36,789 bases of DNA, taken from positions 1-36,789 of the forward strand of contig CALAGR010000512.1 of NCBI GenBank assembly GCA_937891735.1. Reading direction: 5' to 3'. Origin of the DNA: an uncultured Pseudomonadota bacterium (GTDB lineage: Bacteria > Myxococcota_A > UBA796 > UBA9615). Shown piece by piece: positions 14,483 through 27,001 of the stretch. The first letter of the stretch is position 1. Each line of letters begins with the position of its first letter. A program made the translations under genes and the position numbers. The notes beneath the pieces are model-generated. The model searched no databases and was not told the DNA's origin. It saw nothing but the letters and a program-made list of their open reading frames with translations.

Positions 14483-15313
14483 CTACCGCCGGGGGAGGCT
14501 GAAGGTCATGCCTTCGCGCGCCGCGAAGGTGTTCGGCCGAATCGCCTGGGCCTGCTGCTCGATGGCCGCGACCTCCGGGTCGGTGCGCTCGGGCAGGTGG
14601 TGGAAGATGACGAACGTCTCCACGTCCGCCCGCGCGGCGAACTCGACCCCCGCCTCCCAGGTGGCGTGGCCCCAGCCCAAGCGGGCCGGGTACTCCGCCT
14701 CGGTGAACGAGCAGTCCATGATCAGGACGTCCGCGCCGCGAATGAAGTCGATGAACACCGTGTCCAGGTCCGAGCCGTGCTCGATGTCCGTGGCGTACAC
14801 GACGCTGCGGCCTGCGTACTCCACCCGGTAGCTCAGGGCGTGCTGGGGATGGTTCAGCCGGCAGGTCTTGACCGTCACGTCACCCAGGACCACGTCCTCG
14901 TCGGGCTCGACGGGAGTCCAGTCGATGTCGGCGGTCACCATGTTCCACTTGATCGGGAAGTACGGCGGGTGCATCTGGCCGGACAGGATCTCGAGCACCG
15001 ACTGGCCGTTCTTCGTCTCGCCGTACAGGTGCAGCGGCGCGCCGGACACGTAGATCGGCGCGAAGAACGGGAACCCCATGATGTGGTCCCAGTGGTAGTG
15101 CGAGAAGAACAGATGCACCGGCGGGGGCGATCCGCCCTGCATCAGCGACGTGCCCAGCTCACGGATCCCCGTGCCGGCGTCGAAGATGAGGACCTGATCA
15201 CCAGCGCGCACCTCGATACACGAGGTGTTGCCACCGAAGATCTGGGTGTGCGGACCGGGCGCGGGCAGCGACCCACGCGTCCCCCACAATCGCACCTCGA
15301 GACAGTCGCTCAT
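14483..15313 (-). CDS. MBL-fold metallo-hydrolase
   Basis: 276 residues. 'WGTRGSLPAPG' and 'FGGNTSCIEV' open the protein, and the metal motif 'SHYHWDH' (H72, H74, D76, H77) follows 'LIFDAGTGIRELG'. Later ligand candidates are the His in 'LNHPQHALSY', Asp in 'MDCSFTE' and His in 'IFHHLPERTD'. This is the RNase Z/phosphodiesterase-like branch of the metallo-beta-lactamase fold, often annotated near PhnP or cyclic-nucleotide phosphodiesterases. Likely a cytoplasmic two-metal hydrolase; the phosphodiester substrate is an inference from the branch. There is no signal peptide. Complete length; start ATG at 15313. Confidence 0.8.
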   Translation of the reverse strand: MSDCLEVRLWGTRGSLPAPGPHTQIFGGNTSCIEVRAGDQVLIFDAGTGIRELGTSLMQGGSPPPVHLFFSHYHWDHIMGFPFFAPIYVSGAPLHLYGETKNGQSVLEILSGQMHPPYFPIKWNMVTADIDWTPVEPDEDVVLGDVTVKTCRLNHPQHALSYRVEYAGRSVVYATDIEHGSDLDTVFIDFIRGADVLIMDCSFTEAEYPARLGWGHATWEAGVEFAARADVETFVIFHHLPERTDPEVAAIEQQAQAIRPNTFAAREGMTFSLPRR

Positions 15314-19449: not shown

Positions 19450-20422
19450 CCCGTCGGGCCACGACCATCACGATGTCGCCCTGCCAGCGGTTGAGCAGCG
19501 GGCCCAGGGTCGCGTCGAAGAGCAGCACGAAGGGCATCCCCAGGAGCCCCGCGGCCCAGCTCACCCCCTTCATCAGGGGGTTGTTCGCGAAGCGGCTGCG
19601 ACGGCCCAGCGTGTTCTGCACGCGGTGCACCCAGGACGCCGAGAGGGTGAGCGGGTAACCACTCACGCCCCAGCTCACGGGCTCCAGCCCCGCCGCGCGC
19701 AGCGCCCGCTCCAGGCCCGGGCGGGAGAACAGGTGCACATGCTGGGGCGGCAGATGCGGCCACCACCAGCGGCCCAGCAGGCGGATCCCCCAGCCGTCCC
19801 CCCGGGGCACCTCGACCTCCACCAGCCCACCCTCACGCACCAGGCTCGCGGCGTGGGCGAGGGCCTGCTCGGGTCGCGGATGGTGCTCGAGGAAGTGGTT
19901 CATGGACACGACGTCGGCGGGCGCCTCGAGCGTGACGTCGTCGAACAGCCGACGGATCACGCGGGGTCCCGACCCTGCCCCGAGCGCCTGCTCCAGGCGC
20001 GCTTCGGTCGCGTCCGCCGCCGGGCCGCCCAACTCGACGCCCTGCGCATCGGTGGTGCCCAGCGCGACGGCGAGCTCGCTGAGGAAGTGGCCCAGCCCAC
20101 AGCCCACGTCCAGGATCCGGACCGGCCCCTCCGAGTCCAGCGCCGCCACCACGGCCGCGATCCGCGCCCGGCGCAGCCCCCGGTCGAACCCCGACTCGTT
20201 CGCCTTGCGCATCACCTCGAGGTTCTCGGGCGTGTAGAGCTGCCCGTAGAACTCCGCCAGGACCGCCGCGTCGGGCATCGGGGCGAGGGTGCCATGTCCG
20301 CAGGCGCACCGCGCGAACGTCCAGGTGCCCTGCCCGTGCAGGACGAGGTCCCGAACGGGATAGGCCGCGGTGGCCTCATTGGCGCCACACACGGGACACG
20401 GAGGGGTGCTGACGGTGCTCAC
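19424..20422 (-). CDS. Class I SAM methyltransferase with N-terminal zinc ribbon
   Basis: 332 residues from a GTG overlapping the stop of the sigma-54 activator gene (GTGA). The N-terminus '[10 protein letters not shown]' with a later 'CACGHG' suggests a zinc ribbon. Motif I, '[16 protein letters not shown]', and '[18 protein letters not shown]' place it in the Methyltransf_23/11 group. The C-terminal part has a hydrophobic segment ('[19 protein letters not shown]') that may associate with the membrane. Relatives of this layout modify sugars or lipids in surface polysaccharide loci; the substrate is unknown here. Coupling suggests production together with the activator. Confidence 0.75.
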
Positions 20423-21927
20423 GGCGCGGATCGTACCGGTCCCTGCCGCCAACGCAGGCGGCGCAGCAGCGTGTTGCGGCCGATCCCCAGCCGACGGGCG
20501 GCCTCGGAGTGGTTTCCGCCGCAGGCCTGCACGGCGTCGGCGACGTAGTCCGACACCACCTCCCGCAGGGGGCGAATCGCGTCGGGGCGCCCGGGGCGTG
20601 GTGCCGCCACCGGTGGGGGCACGGGCGTGCTCCCCTTCGCCCCCCGCAGCTCCAGGTCCGCGACGCCGATCCGCTCCCCCGGGGCCAGCACCACCCCGGA
20701 CTCCACGGCGTGCTCGAGCTCCCGCACGTTCCCGGGCCACCCGTGTCCGTGCAGCCGCGCCCTCGCCTCAGGGGTCAGCCGCATGCCGGACCGACCGTAC
20801 TTGCGGGCCGCCTCGAACAGGAAGTGGTCGATCAGTCGATCCAGATCCGCGTGGTCCCGCTCCCGAAGCGGCGGGACCCGGATCTCCACCACCCGAAGGC
20901 GGTAGTACAGGTCCTGCCGGAACGTGCCCTGCTCGATCCGCTCCTCCAGATCCTGGTGCGTGGCCGCCACCACCCGCAGATCCGCGGTGTGCAGGGCCGT
21001 CCCCCCCACGCGGAACCAGGTCCGGTCCTGCAGGAGCCGCAGCAGCCGGCTCTGGGCTGCGATGGGCAGCTCTGCGATCTCATCGAGGAACAGCGTGCCG
21101 CCGTCCGCCGCCGCCACCTTGCCGTCCACCGCCTCCCCGGCGCCGGTGAAGGCGCCCCGCTCGTGGCCGAACAGCTCGTTCTCCACCAGCCCCCCGGGCA
21201 GCGCGCCGCAGTCCACCTTGATGAACGGCCCCTGGGCGCGGGGTGAGTTGTGGTGCACGGCCCGCGCGATCAGCTCCTTGCCGCTGCCGCTCTCTCCCAG
21301 CACGAGCACGGTGGCCTGGGTGCGGCTCGCCCGCTGCGCCCGGTCGTACACCCGCTGCATCGCCGCCGACTCTCCGACGATGCCGTTGAAACGGAACGAG
21401 AGGGGCCGGGCACCCTCCCGGAGCTGGCTCCACAGGGACGTCGCGTCGAGCAGGCGACCCAGCTCGATGGCCGTGATCTCCAGCTCACGCCGGTCGCCAG
21501 CGCCGAAGCGCCCGTGCAGTCGATTGAGGACCTGGACCACGCCCACCAGCTCCCCATCCGGGGTGCGGATCGCCGCGGCCATCAGCGAGTCGGTGCGGTA
21601 GCCGGTCAGGGCGTCGTAGCGGGCCGCGAACCGCTCGTCGGCGGCGGCGGTGTTGACCACCACGGTCTCGCCGGTGCGCGCGACCTCGCCGGCGATGCCC
21701 TCCCCCACGGCAAGGCGGATCTCCTGGTTGGACAGCGCGGTGGCGACCCGGCTGATCAGCTCGCCCCGGGCGCGATCCAGCAGGTACAGCGTCGCTCGGT
21801 CCGATCCCAGGTGCTCCGCGACCCCGAGCATCAGGACGGCGAGCAGCTCGTCGAGATCGACCGGCGCCGCGCCGAGGTCGGCGGTGACCCGTGCGATCCG
21901 TTTCGGATCATATGAGGCGGTCTTCAT
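20419..21927 (-). CDS. Sigma-54-dependent activator (GAF-AAA+-Fis)
   Basis: 502 residues from the ATG at 21927; the longer ORF start would run through the divergent promoter region. An N-terminal GAF domain (about 20-160: '[20 protein letters not shown]', '[18 protein letters not shown]') is the sensory input. The AAA+ domain has Walker A 'GESGSGK' (211-217), 'GAFTGA' (258-263, the sigma-54 contact loop, intact) and '[12 protein letters not shown]' (Walker B). The C-terminal Fis-type HTH is '[20 protein letters not shown]'. It opens sigma-54 promoters by ATP hydrolysis; the GAF ligand is unknown. A perfect sigma-54 promoter lies 80 bp away, pointing outward to the 64-aa gene, an obvious candidate target. 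Confidence 0.93.
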
Positions 21928-22006
21928 CGATCCACTATGAACCACCTGGACGATTCTGGCGCACATCGATCTGCCCGATTCGCACGACGCCGCACCGTGG
22001 CCGCGT

Positions 22007-22022
22007 TGGCACGGCCATTGCT
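22007..22022 (+). promoter_or_regulatory. Sigma-54 (-24/-12) promoter
   Basis: TGGCACG-GCCA-TTGCT is an exact match to the consensus TGGCACG-N4-TTGCW. The GG (22008-22009) and GC (22020-22021) are 12 bp apart as required. Transcription would start near 22033 and give a ~25-nt leader containing AGGAG before the ATG at 22058. The site lies between the divergent sigma-54 activator gene and the 64-aa gene. Confidence 0.88.
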
Positions 22023-22057
22023 CTCCCGAGGTGGGCCCGAAGGAGAGGAGTCCACCC

Positions 22058-22252
22058 ATGACGGATCACACCCACCTGCTCACCAACGCCATCGCCGGCC
22101 TGCGCGGCGGGGGCCCGACGCCGCCCGACGAACCCCTGAGCCCTGAAGACGCGATGGCCCTGGCCGCGTTCCTCATCGCGGAGCTGGCTCCCCTCCGCGA
22201 GACACGGCTGGACATCGCCACCTTGAGGAGGGACCCGGAGCCAGAGGGCTGA
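22058..22252 (+). CDS. 64-aa protein behind a sigma-54 promoter
   Basis: The product begins '[19 protein letters not shown]', has an Ala/Leu-rich probable helix ('[19 protein letters not shown]') and ends polar. The AGGAG at 22046-22050 is 7 nt from the ATG. No domain recognised. The helix is amphipathic rather than clearly membrane-spanning, so it is probably cytoplasmic. Its reality is supported by the correct distance to a perfect sigma-54 promoter and a good ribosome binding site. It precedes the diguanylate cyclase gene by 78 bp on the same strand, so the promoter may also serve that gene. Confidence 0.6.
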
Positions 22253-22330: not shown

Positions 22331-23512
22331 ATGGCAGGTGTATTCGGGCGACTGAAGGGATGGGGCGCAGCGCCCGGGGGGACCCCTGCGCCGGTCGAGG
22401 CCCCGGCCCCTGGATCCGACGGGCTCGTCACCGCGGATGCAGGGCTCGACGCCGCCCTGGACACGCTCGCCTCGGTGCTGCGTTCCTACGGCCGGGCCGC
22501 CCTGGACACGGAGACGGCCACCGCCGAGAGCATTGACGAACGCTGTGAGTCCTGGGCCCGCCACGTCCTGAACGGCTCCCCGATCCCGGGCCCGCACGGC
22601 GCGTCGCCGACCGACGAAGAGCCGGCCCCGGTGCCCGTGGAGCAGCGCGCGTGGGCCCCCTTGCGCAGGTTCTTCCGGGACCAGCGGCAGGGGGAGGTGG
22701 CCCACCACGGGCAGGTCGGAACCACGCTGCGGGGCACCGTCCTGGAGCTCGTGGACGTCGTCTACAAGGCCTTCGAGGACGGACGCGGGGTGGACGAGGA
22801 GCTCAGCGCGCGGGCCTGTGAGCTTCGGGCGGCCCTCGCCAGCGAGGACGTCACGACCCTGCGCACCGCGGCCCAACGGGTGACCGCATCCCTGGAGCAG
22901 AGCCTGGAGCGCCGGGAGGCCATTCACGAGCGGGCCGTGAAGTCCCTGGGGCGCCGGCTCCGGGTGGTCCGGGACCAGCTCAAGGAGGCCACCCGGGCCG
23001 CGGAGGTGGATGCCCTCACGGGGCTGGCCAACCGCGCCGCGCTGGACCGGCGCATCGAGGCGAGCATCACCCTGAGCCGCTTCACCGGCCAGCCCGAGTG
23101 CCTGCTCATGCTCGACATCGATCACTTCAAGACCGTCAACGACACCCACGGCCACCGGGTCGGCGACCGGGTGCTCGCCGAGATCGGCGCCTGCCTCGCG
23201 CGCACCGTCATCCGCCGCAGTGACTTCGTGGCCCGTTATGGCGGCGAGGAGTTCTCGGTGGTGCTGAGCGACACCGACTCCGAGCAGGCCGTGTCCGTCG
23301 GGGAGCGGGTGCTGCGGGACATCCGGGCGCTCCGCGTGCCCCTGGAGGGCGGTGGGAGCCTGTCCGTGACGGCGAGCCTGGGCCTCGCGGACCTGCGCAG
23401 CGACGACGACGCGCCGAGCTGGATCGACGCGGCGGATCGCGCGATGTACCGCGCGAAGGATGAGGGCCGCGACCAGCTCTGCGTTCGGGGGTCCACGTCG
23501 GGCGGGCGCTAG
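22331..23512 (+). CDS. GGDEF diguanylate cyclase
   Basis: 393 residues. An N-terminal region of about 220 residues, mostly helical and without a recognised sensor domain ('VELVDVVYKAFEDGRG'-like helices), is followed by a coiled segment ('HERAVKSLGRRLRVVRDQLK') and a complete GGDEF domain. The active site is 'YGGEEF' (G304-F308), with 'DIDHFKTVNDTHGH' for metal and GTP binding. The product-inhibition I-site RxxD is intact (R295-D298, five residues before GGEEF). The enzyme should make cyclic di-GMP from two GTP in the cytoplasm and be feedback-inhibited. The next gene begins 10 bp later, so the two are probably one operon. Confidence 0.9.
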   Translation: MAGVFGRLKGWGAAPGGTPAPVEAPAPGSDGLVTADAGLDAALDTLASVLRSYGRAALDTETATAESIDERCESWARHVLNGSPIPGPHGASPTDEEPAPVPVEQRAWAPLRRFFRDQRQGEVAHHGQVGTTLRGTVLELVDVVYKAFEDGRGVDEELSARACELRAALASEDVTTLRTAAQRVTASLEQSLERREAIHERAVKSLGRRLRVVRDQLKEATRAAEVDALTGLANRAALDRRIEASITLSRFTGQPECLLMLDIDHFKTVNDTHGHRVGDRVLAEIGACLARTVIRRSDFVARYGGEEFSVVLSDTDSEQAVSVGERVLRDIRALRVPLEGGGSLSVTASLGLADLRSDDDAPSWIDAADRAMYRAKDEGRDQLCVRGSTSGGR

Positions 23513-23521
23513 ACTGCCGGC

Positions 23522-24562
23522 GTGCCGCCCGTCCACCGCAGCGAATCGCCCCTGTGGCAGGTCACCCGCGAGCCGCTGATCCACCAGCTGCTGGGCTACC
23601 TGACCGACGCGCGCCGACGCATCGACGAGGGCCCCGGGCCCCACCGGCTCGAGTTCAGCCGCAGCCGCATCGCCGAGGTCGAGCACGCCTACCGCCGCAT
23701 GGTCCGACAGGGCGAGGAGCGCCTGCATCGGCTGGGGCAGCTGATGTGCGACTCCCTGTTCGAGGCGGGCCGCGATCTGGACAGCGTGGTGGTGGGCGAG
23801 GTGGTGGCCACCGGGCGCCGGTTCACCCTCACGCAGCCCCTGAGTGAAGCGGACCTCTTCGGACTCACGGACCTGGAGCTGGGGGACCGCGTCCTGCGCC
23901 GGGTCGCCATCGACGGAGGCGCCTGCCGCCTGATCGCGAACCGGGTCGAGTACCTGCCCCACCGCGAGAACCCCTTCGGAGTGCACAAGCTCGTGTGCCG
24001 GGTGAAGGCCGAAGAGGAGCTGTGGAACAAGGTCATCGACGAGCTGTTCGACCTCGACTCCATCGTGCAGCGCGACAAGGAGCTGCGGCACCTGTCCAGG
24101 TACGTCAAGGACGTCTTCGGGCTCAAGTTCGTGGTCAGCAACGAGCAGCAGGTGCTCGCGCTCCAGCGCCACCTCACGGACCTGCGCTGGAGCCGCGACG
24201 CCCTGTCCGAGCGGGAGATCCCCGCCAGCGACGACACCGTGCGCCTGCACTTCCTGGAGACGAAGGACTACCTGAGCCGGAGCAAGTCCTCGGGATGGAC
24301 GGCGGTGAAGTCCGTCGTGCGCTGGTGGGATGGGCTCTTCGAGATCCAGGTGCAGCCGCTGGTCAACTACTACCGTGAGCGGGAGCGGCTCACGCGCGAG
24401 AGTCACCAGGCTCACAAGCAGCGCCGGGACCTGCTGCGGGAGCAGGTCGGGGAGCGACTCCCCCTGCTCACGTTCACCCGCCAGCTCCTTCAGTGGCTCT
24501 TCACGGGAGCCCAGGGAGCGCCGCCGGAGCACCCGGGAGTGCAGATCGTGGTGGGGCCCTAG
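23522..24562 (+). CDS. Divergent RelA/SpoT synthetase-like protein
   Basis: 346 residues from a GTG 10 bp after the diguanylate cyclase. The N-terminal half is unrecognised. The C-terminal half follows the order of a (p)ppGpp synthetase domain: 'SIVQRDKEL', then '[11 protein letters not shown]' (like DlvGiRi; D197), '[20 protein letters not shown]' (like KDYIxxPKxNGYxSLHTxV), 'FEIQVQP' (like EIQIRT; E274) and 'ESHQAHK'. The two acidic residues expected for metal and catalysis are kept. The guanine-stacking Tyr is Trp259, the following His is Lys263, and the Arg of EIQIRT is Gln. So it may be a synthetase with altered specificity or a degenerate nucleotide-binding protein. The family call is by motif order only. 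Confidence 0.55.
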
Positions 24563-24627: not shown

Positions 24628-24679
24628 TTGAATCTGGACCAAATTGGTCCATTATTGCATCGTGGACTGAAACGGTCCG
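24628..24679 (+). promoter_or_regulatory. Sigma-factor gene promoter with two GGAC-N7-GTCC sites
   Basis: Within AT-rich DNA, TGGACCAAATTGGTCCA (24635-24651) is a perfect 17-bp palindrome. TGGACTGAAACGGTCCG (24663-24679) repeats the GGAC-N7-GTCC frame exactly 28 bp later with weaker symmetry. A possible -35 (TTGAAT, 24628-24633) and -10 (ATTATT, 24651-24656) with a 17-bp spacer would place the first palindrome in the promoter spacer, a typical repressor position. The form GACYAAATTRGTC recalls Rrf2/IscR-type sites (inference). The ATG of the sigma factor is at 24723. Confidence 0.6.
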
Positions 24680-24722: not shown

Positions 24723-25577
24723 ATGGCAGGCAGCCGTCGTGAGAACCGCATCCTCGACCACTACCTCAAGGTAATGGGGGCCCATCCCCTCATGAACCGC
24801 GCCGACGAGTACGAGACAGGGCGCTTGATCATGGAAGGCACCCCCGTGGAGAAGATCCGCGCGCGGGAGAAGATGATCAACTGCAACCTGCGCCTCGTCG
24901 TGCACATCGCGAAGCAGTACGGCTACCGGGGCATGCCCCTGTCCGACCTGATCCAGGAGGGCAACATCGGGCTGATGCGCGCCGCGGAGAAGTTCGAGTA
25001 CCACCGCGGGTTCAAGTTCAGCACCTACGCCACCTGGTGGATCCGGCAGGCCATCGTGCGGGGCATCGAGTCCAGCTGCCGCACCATCCGCGTGCCCGTC
25101 TACAAGGTCGGCCTGATGAACTCCGTGCGCCAGAAGGGCAAGGAGATGGCCGGGATCCTCGGACGGGAGCCCAGCCGCGAAGAGCTCGCCGCAGAGATGC
25201 ACATGGAGCTCGGTGAGCTCGAGGACCTGCTGGGCATGGGGCGTGATCCCGTGAGCCTGGACAAGCCCGTGGGCGAAGACGGCACGACCTCGCTGGGCGA
25301 GCTGATCGCCTCCGACGCGGAGATGCCCGACAAGGCGCTCGTGGTGGAGGCGCTGCAGGATCAGGTGTTTCGCGCCCTCGCGACCCTGACCCCCCGGGAG
25401 GAGCAGGTGCTCCGGCTGCGCTACGGCATGGACGAAGGCGACGCCCTGTCCCTGGAGAAGATCGGCCGCGAATTCAGCCTCACCCGGGAGCGGATCCGGC
25501 AGATCGAGCTCCGGGCGTTGGAGAAGCTGCGCGGCACCAAGCGCCAGCACTACCTCGCGGACTTCGCGGTCGCCTGA
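24723..25577 (+). CDS. Sigma-70 family factor (group 2, RpoS/SigB-like)
   Basis: 284 residues. Region 1.2 ('[20 protein letters not shown]') is followed by region 2, with core-binding '[20 protein letters not shown]' and -10 recognition and melting '[15 protein letters not shown]'. Region 3 ('[16 protein letters not shown]') and region 4 ('[15 protein letters not shown]' HTH for the -35) complete it. Region 1.1 and the long RpoD insert are absent, so it is an alternative, RpoD-related sigma factor. The ATG at 24723 follows the operator-bearing promoter by about 45 nt; the longer ORF start at 24330 lies inside the preceding gene. Target promoters unknown. Confidence 0.92.
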
Positions 25578-25600: not shown

Positions 25601-27001
25601 GTGGCCGGACCGGACACCACCTTCGACGTCGCAGAGACCCGCTCCCTGCACGCCCACCTCCCGGCGGATCTGTCGATCTCCCGGCTGCTCGTGGCGTGGT
25701 CGCCGGACGCGGACCAGGTGGGGCGCGCGGTGGCGCTGGAGTCGAGCCCGGTGCGCATCGGTCGCCGCTCCAAGAAGAGCGGACCGGAGCTCCAGCTCGC
25801 CGACGCCGCCGTGTCCCGCGAGCACGCGGTGGTCGAGCCGGCCCAGGGGGGCTGGCAGGTCCGAAACCTCGGCAGCCGGAACGGCACCTGGGTGCACGGT
25901 CAGCTCCGGGACGTGCAGGTCCTGAGCCACGGCACCGTGATCCGCATCGGCGAGACCCTGCTGCTGTTCCAGGAGCTGACCGTCAAGCTGAACGAGCGCC
26001 TGCTCGCCGAGGTCGCACCCCTCATGGGCCCGTCCCTGGCCATGGAGCGGGTGCGCGGGCAGGTCGCCGACGTCGCCCGGTCCGACATCCCCGTCCTGGT
26101 GACCGGGCCCTCCGGCACCGGCAAGGAGCTCGTCGCCGCCGAGGTGCACAAGCGATCCGGGCGGCGCGGGGCCTTCGTGCCCGTCAACTGCGGGGCGCTC
26201 CCGCGGGAGCTGGTGGAGAGCGAGCTGTTCGGACACGTGGACGGCGCCTTCACGGGGGCCCGCAAGGCGGCCCCAGGCCTGTTCCGGGCGGCCGACGGCG
26301 GCACGCTGTTCCTCGACGAGATCGGTGAGCTGCCCCTGGAGATGCAGCCGCGGCTGCTGCGCGTGCTGGCCACCGGCGAGATCCGCCCGGTGGGCTCGGA
26401 GCGGGCGACCCGGGTCGATGCGCGGGTCGTCGCCGCCACCAACCGCGACCCCGAGGGCGACGTCGCCGCGGGCACCTTCCGCGGGGACCTGCTGGCGCGC
26501 CTGTCGGGGTGGCGGATCCACATGCCCACGCTCCGGCAGCGCCGGTCGGACGTGCTCCCCATCGCGCGCCACTTCGCGGACGGGCGACTCATCCTCACCG
26601 CCGACGCCGCCGAGGCGCTGCTGCTTCACGACTGGCCCTGGAACGTCCGGGAGCTGGAGCAGACCATCCGGGCCAGCCGGGTGCGCGCCGGCAGCGGGCC
26701 CCTGACCCTGGAGCACCTGCCGGAGGCGATCCGCGAGCCCCTCGACGCGCGACACCGCGCGATGGATCAGAGGGTGACCGACGCCCTGCCCCCGGTGAGC
26801 GTGCAGGCGCCGGCGCGGATGCCCCCGGCGCTCAGCGTGCCCCGGGACCGCACCCCCGACGCGGCGGATCTGCGGCGGGTGCTCGACTGGTACGAAGGCA
26901 ACGTCTCGCAGGTGGCGGCGTTCTTCGGCAAGGAGCGGGCCCAGGTGTATCGCTGGGCGCGCCGGCTCGAGATCGACCCCACCGACTTCCGCAAAGCATG
27001 A
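25601..27001 (+). CDS. Sigma-54-dependent activator with FHA input domain
   Basis: 466 residues from a GTG 23 bp after the sigma-70-type gene. An FHA domain (about 48-125) shows 'RIGRR', 'SREHAVVEP' and 'LGSRNGTWVHG', the residues that read phospho-threonine. The AAA+ domain has 'GPSGTGK' (169-175), intact 'GAFTGA' (215-220), Walker B 'LFLDEIGEL' (D239-E240) and 'NVRELEQTI'. After a Pro-rich linker the C-terminal HTH is 'NVSQVAAFFGKERAQVYRWA'. FHA-type activators are characteristic of myxobacteria and are thought to respond to Ser/Thr kinases. No kinase is visible here, so the input partner is elsewhere. It ends in an ATGA overlap with the next gene. Confidence 0.92.
   Translation: MAGPDTTFDVAETRSLHAHLPADLSISRLLVAWSPDADQVGRAVALESSPVRIGRRSKKSGPELQLADAAVSREHAVVEPAQGGWQVRNLGSRNGTWVHGQLRDVQVLSHGTVIRIGETLLLFQELTVKLNERLLAEVAPLMGPSLAMERVRGQVADVARSDIPVLVTGPSGTGKELVAAEVHKRSGRRGAFVPVNCGALPRELVESELFGHVDGAFTGARKAAPGLFRAADGGTLFLDEIGELPLEMQPRLLRVLATGEIRPVGSERATRVDARVVAATNRDPEGDVAAGTFRGDLLARLSGWRIHMPTLRQRRSDVLPIARHFADGRLILTADAAEALLLHDWPWNVRELEQTIRASRVRAGSGPLTLEHLPEAIREPLDARHRAMDQRVTDALPPVSVQAPARMPPALSVPRDRTPDAADLRRVLDWYEGNVSQVAAFFGKERAQVYRWARRLEIDPTDFRKA

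Follow-up and report, generated by a model that had tools for sequence, protein, structure and literature searches.

In Borrelia, the Rrp2-RpoN-RpoS cascade places an RpoS-like sigma factor under the control of a sigma-54 promoter (PMC11109971, PMC4014564). In Myxococcus xanthus, Nla28 and other sigma-54 activators form cascades by controlling the genes of further regulators (PMC9765219), and promoter scans covering many classes reported a link between sigma-54 and genes of the sigma-70 family (COG0568) (PMC12316311). Our search of the literature on activator cascades returned no small gene comparable to the one described here. We analysed a stretch of 36,789 nucleotides, hereafter the window, from the genome of an uncultured bacterium, probably a myxobacterium, in which a site that is very probably a working sigma-54 promoter lies between a gene for a 64-aa protein and a divergent gene for a sigma-54 activator. 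For the small gene, the comparison within the genus comprised the window genome and one other genome, G001.

Results

The promoter site and the genes on either side

The region around the site contains the following features.

20422 to 21927, reverse strand: sigma-54 activator (bEBP) with GAF, AAA+ (with GAFTGA) and Fis-type HTH_8 domains (PF01590, PF00158, PF02954)
21931 to 21971, no strand assigned: conserved block near the activator start, alignable to the corresponding position in G001 (score equalled by 5 of 1000 shuffles)
22007 to 22022, forward strand: sigma-54 -24/-12 promoter, very probably working, TGGCACGGCCATTGCT; exact consensus, also present in G001
22033, forward strand: probable transcription start, about 12 nt past the GC of the -12 element
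22040 to 22050, forward strand: ribosome-binding site, SD-like AAGGAGAGGAG, seven nt 5' of the ATG
22058 to 22252, forward strand: gene for a 64-aa small protein, supported by a homologous ORF in G001 and by codon bias; two helices predicted by AlphaFold2

The site, TGGCACG-GCCA-TTGCT, agrees with the consensus at all 12 of 12 positions, and its GG and GC dinucleotides are spaced ten bases apart inside TGGCACG-N4-TTGCW. The window contained no other exact match, and 0.01 were expected from dinucleotide shuffles. When the whole genome (a draft assembly of 542 contigs and 7.87 Mb) was searched, 10 exact sites were found, versus 2 for a reversed-pattern control. All 10 sit 29-106 bp 5' of a same-strand ATG or GTG, indicating that the exact-match class consists largely of real promoters. 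As named by eye from sequence, the genes behind these sites include those for membrane-fusion-type, MotA-like, outer-membrane-efflux-type, molybdopterin-oxidoreductase-like and rhodanese-like proteins as well as lipoproteins. The genome also contains an rpoN gene.

In G001, 18 of 18 promoter bases (TGGCACGGCCATTGCTCT; the site and two further bases, the free N4 spacer included) are identical, whereas the remaining intergenic DNA has mostly diverged. Since the activator, these 18 bases and the small ORF are all kept in G001, 22007-22022 very probably functions as a promoter. The gap between the site and the small ORF is 35 nt (51 bp from the site start to the ATG at 22058), and the SD-like AAGGAGAGGAG lies within it, so that the earlier note was right in describing a consensus-perfect sigma-54 site just before a small ORF with a good ribosome-binding site. 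The reading that we favour, and consider probable, is that the divergent activator and sigma-54 together drive the small gene, which heads a regulatory cluster.

The downstream cluster and its sigma factor

Behind the small gene, the window contains the following features.

22331 to 23512, forward strand: diguanylate cyclase (GGDEF, RYGGEEF; PF00990, E 3e-42), lineage-specific
23522 to 24562, forward strand: ORF with weak RelA/SpoT-region resemblance (PF04607, E 0.02, below the cut-off), lineage-specific
24635 to 24651, no strand assigned: perfect palindrome of 17 bp, TGGACCAAATTGGTCCA, 5' of the sigma gene; identical and in the same place in G001
24723 to 25577, forward strand: RpoS/RpoD-like alternative sigma factor (TIGR02394), a genus-specific second copy, 84% identical to that of G001
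25601 to 27001, forward strand: FHA-domain sigma-54 activator (PF00498 and PF00158), 63% identical to that in the same place in G001

The gene order in G001 is activator, small ORF, sigma factor (84%), FHA activator (63%) and lipoprotein (64%), and the syntenic locus has no counterparts of the diguanylate cyclase and ORF 23522-24562. The diguanylate cyclase had been proposed as a partner of the small gene; since it is missing from G001, this link is not conserved. The conserved downstream neighbours are instead the RpoS/RpoD-like sigma factor and the FHA-type activator, on both of which the earlier note was silent. In the window genome itself, co-transcription of the small gene and the diguanylate cyclase is possible (gap of 78 nt, no terminator-like site). 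ORF 23522-24562, which had no PDB match in a solved-structure search, lies directly 3' of the cyclase, and the two are possibly nucleotide-signal genes side by side.

The sigma factor scored 262.6 bits against the RpoS model TIGR02394, under the equivalog cut-off of 378.7. Relatives were present in 62 of the 71 genomes of the class, and a phylum-wide search outside the class returned mostly long RpoD-type frames. Of 63 loci, orthologs and paralogs together, 60 had a sigma-54 site (score of at least 14 within 300 bp) 5' of the sigma gene, at about 60-130 bp from it, versus 0.2 expected from shuffles; loci with the site include L142-L144, L152, L153 and L160-L207. This class-wide site points to a candidate cascade from sigma-54 to an RpoS-like factor. 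Three loci had no such upstream site: that of the paralog L208 and those of the two genus-specific copies, one in the window and one in G001, which have it 5' of the small ORF instead.

This displacement raises the question of whether the sigma factor is the true output of the promoter, the small ORF having originated as a leader cistron between promoter and duplicated sigma gene. The locus would then be a rearranged copy of the class-wide switch from sigma-54 to a sigma-70-family gene. The co-oriented genes in the window, separated by gaps of 78, 9, 160 and 23 nt in which no terminator-like site was found, are also consistent with such an output. However, 2.7 kb separate the promoter from the sigma gene in the window (about 540 bp in G001), a palindrome of its own precedes the sigma gene, and the frame of the small protein is conserved. 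We regard this explanation as possible, if on the doubtful side.

The exact form of the palindrome TGGACCAAATTGGTCCA occurs once per genome in the window genome and G001, and other matches to its pattern were no commoner than a control in the two genomes; it is a candidate operator for some regulator. In G001, a stretch of 275 bp that contains the palindrome and two weak terminator-like hairpins (2 vs 1.2 in shuffles, scarcely above them) separates the small gene from that for the sigma factor, suggesting that the small gene may have a transcript to itself.

The divergent activator

We return to the favoured reading, in which the small gene is driven by the divergently encoded activator. The motifs of this protein are intact (Walker A GESGSGKE, GAFTGA and Walker B FLDEI, with a Sigma54_activat domain), and its DNA-binding HTH was detected at E 6e-9 (PF02954). 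With its GAF domain, it is thus the divergent GAF-type activator with intact GAFTGA that had been proposed from the sequence. ATG 21927 was preferred as its start; the start at 22059 in the ORF list is an upstream extension. The activator is 62% identical to its ortholog in G001 and 51-59% identical to orthologs elsewhere in the class and among named MAGs of the Myxococcota; these named relatives are the grounds for regarding the phylum as probable.

In these distant orthologs, of both the class and the named MAGs, no small ORF was found alongside, and the activator mostly follows a metallo-beta-lactamase-fold hydrolase as the second gene of an operon. A sigma-54-like site was found 37-72 bp 5' of the hydrolase start in 6 of the 8 loci where the hydrolase was located, with scores of 18.7, 15.5, 14.4 and 14.3 and two weak ones of 11.9 and 11.0, on a scoring matrix whose weights were set by hand from the known consensus. 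Judging from these sites, orthologs of the window activator are usually tied to a nearby sigma-54-like promoter, and in this genus to that of the small gene. For the hydrolase-activator operons behind a sigma-54-like site (L017, L019, L021-L023 and L062), autoregulation is probable.

The window also encodes a metallo-beta-lactamase-fold hydrolase (14483-15313), a relative at about 45% of the one adjoining the activator in other genomes. It lies 3' of the activator on the same strand in both genus members, and no sigma-54-like site was found before the window gene. At locus L029, another GAF activator and an Amt-like ammonium-transporter gene are transcribed divergently; the transporter gene has a perfect sigma-54 site (TGGCACGCCCCTTGCT), about 290 bp 5' of the activator.

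Enhancer repeats, which the earlier note had suggested looking for, were sought in 21928-22006; no clean repeated inverted motif (dyad) was found there, the only conserved element being the block 21931-21971, which may be an activator-binding site or the promoter of the activator itself. The search did not identify a binding site for the activator, and the genome has 19 matches to activator-type genes at E <= 1e-60, 20422-21927 included. Both observations would suit a promoter that is used by another activator of the genome while the neighbour acts elsewhere. We consider this unlikely, given that the divergent pairing is conserved in G001 and that orthologs of the activator are usually linked to a sigma-54-like site.

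The small protein

The 22058-22252 ORF has GC contents of 0.73/0.53/0.89 by codon position, resembling neighbouring genes, and in-frame codon log-odds were positive in this frame only. A longer form starting at GTG 22031 is unlikely because that codon is at or before the inferred transcription start. The protein had no family match in Pfam, NCBIfam or PHROG, in line with what the earlier note had said of it, and an Rfam search gave no match. AlphaFold2, run on a two-row alignment, predicted helices at residues 4-15 and 29-58 (pLDDT 77, pTM 0.43), and such a two-helix prediction is too plain for naming a fold.

The counterpart in G001 is a 73-aa ORF in the same place, 46 bp from the site start (51 in the window). 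The two proteins (64 vs 73 aa) share 32% identity with a 9-residue indel, and the residues LS, ALAA, EL and LRR are kept in both. Their alignment score was equalled by 4 of 5000 shuffles, and the frame holding the homolog was the best-scoring open frame across the whole G001 locus. A homologous ORF, the promoter bases and the activator are all kept in G001, indicating that the frame is conserved; conservation of ORF and promoter in relatives was one check that the earlier note had suggested, and loss of the frame, which would have refuted its claim, was not what we found. Divergence and the 9-residue indel explain why tblastn missed this homolog.

Other weak tblastn matches lay in long unrelated frames and none was convincing. 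A profile search of the 71 genomes of the class gave no convincing member beyond the genus; weak profile matches in G043 and G031 were rejected as they lie inside long frames. With a homolog in G001 and no other member in the class, the small-protein family is real yet confined to the genus, and it evolves faster than the genes around it.

The modest identity and the indel in so short a product, the weaker codon bias of the G001 ORF and the weak hairpins downstream of it are features that would also be expected if the ORF were untranslated and the sigma-54 transcript a small RNA or leader. This is improbable in our judgement, since a strong SD precedes the ORF in both genomes, the shared residues are kept, the window ORF shows codon bias, and Rfam had no match. 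As for a chance match of 22007-22022 that is no promoter at all, a consensus match alone does not prove function, but with 0.01 expected and 18 bases conserved in G001 we give this explanation hardly any weight.

Discussion

According to our model, sigma-54 RNA polymerase would bind at 22007-22022 and be activated by the divergent GAF-type activator bound between both genes. We infer that the 20422-21927 activator in particular acts here, with its signal presumably sensed through the GAF domain. Transcription would begin at about 22033, the first product being the 64-aa two-helix protein; that the small gene is the main output of the activator, as had been suggested, is plausible. The promoter and small gene would head a co-oriented regulatory cluster, of which the sigma factor and the FHA-type sigma-54 activator are the conserved members and the diguanylate cyclase and ORF 23522 are lineage-specific extras. 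Read-through perhaps reaches the regulatory genes behind the small gene, the sigma gene among them. Since the small gene heads a cluster with an alternative sigma factor, its expression probably feeds into a series of regulatory switches.

Rather than an enzyme, the small protein is probably an adaptor for one of the neighbouring factors or its feedback regulator, a role in keeping with its shortness and helical form, its restriction to one lineage and the position of its gene. A more specific proposal, which we put forward as speculative and rather unlikely, is that a genus-specific two-helix protein made from sigma-54 transcripts controls the duplicated sigma factor or the activator, adding a feedback layer to a class-wide cascade. 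In any case, the locus offers a small protein restricted to one genus, along with a promoter that is defined and open to testing and a candidate for its regulator.

Among known activators, NifA gave the best named model (TIGR01817, 339 bits, under the equivalog cut-off of 528.9 bits) and the best solved relative (PDB 9qq6, residues 26-490, E 1e-82). NifA and the window activator have the domain order GAF-AAA+-Fis in common, but no nif genes were recognised near the window activator. Nla28 of M. xanthus, which is connected with starvation and fruiting, is a different activator from that of the window. The Borrelia cascade resembles this class in that nearly all loci examined in the class have a sigma-54 site 5' of the orthologous sigma gene. 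It differs in its activator, which has a receiver domain where that of the window has a GAF domain, and in that the window copy has a small gene between the promoter and the sigma factor. Within this class of probable Myxococcota, nearly all genomes have a sigma-54 site 5' of an RpoS-like sigma gene. This suggests that the wiring from sigma-54 to an RpoS-like factor, for which Borrelia is the best-known example, is a regular trait of the class as a whole.
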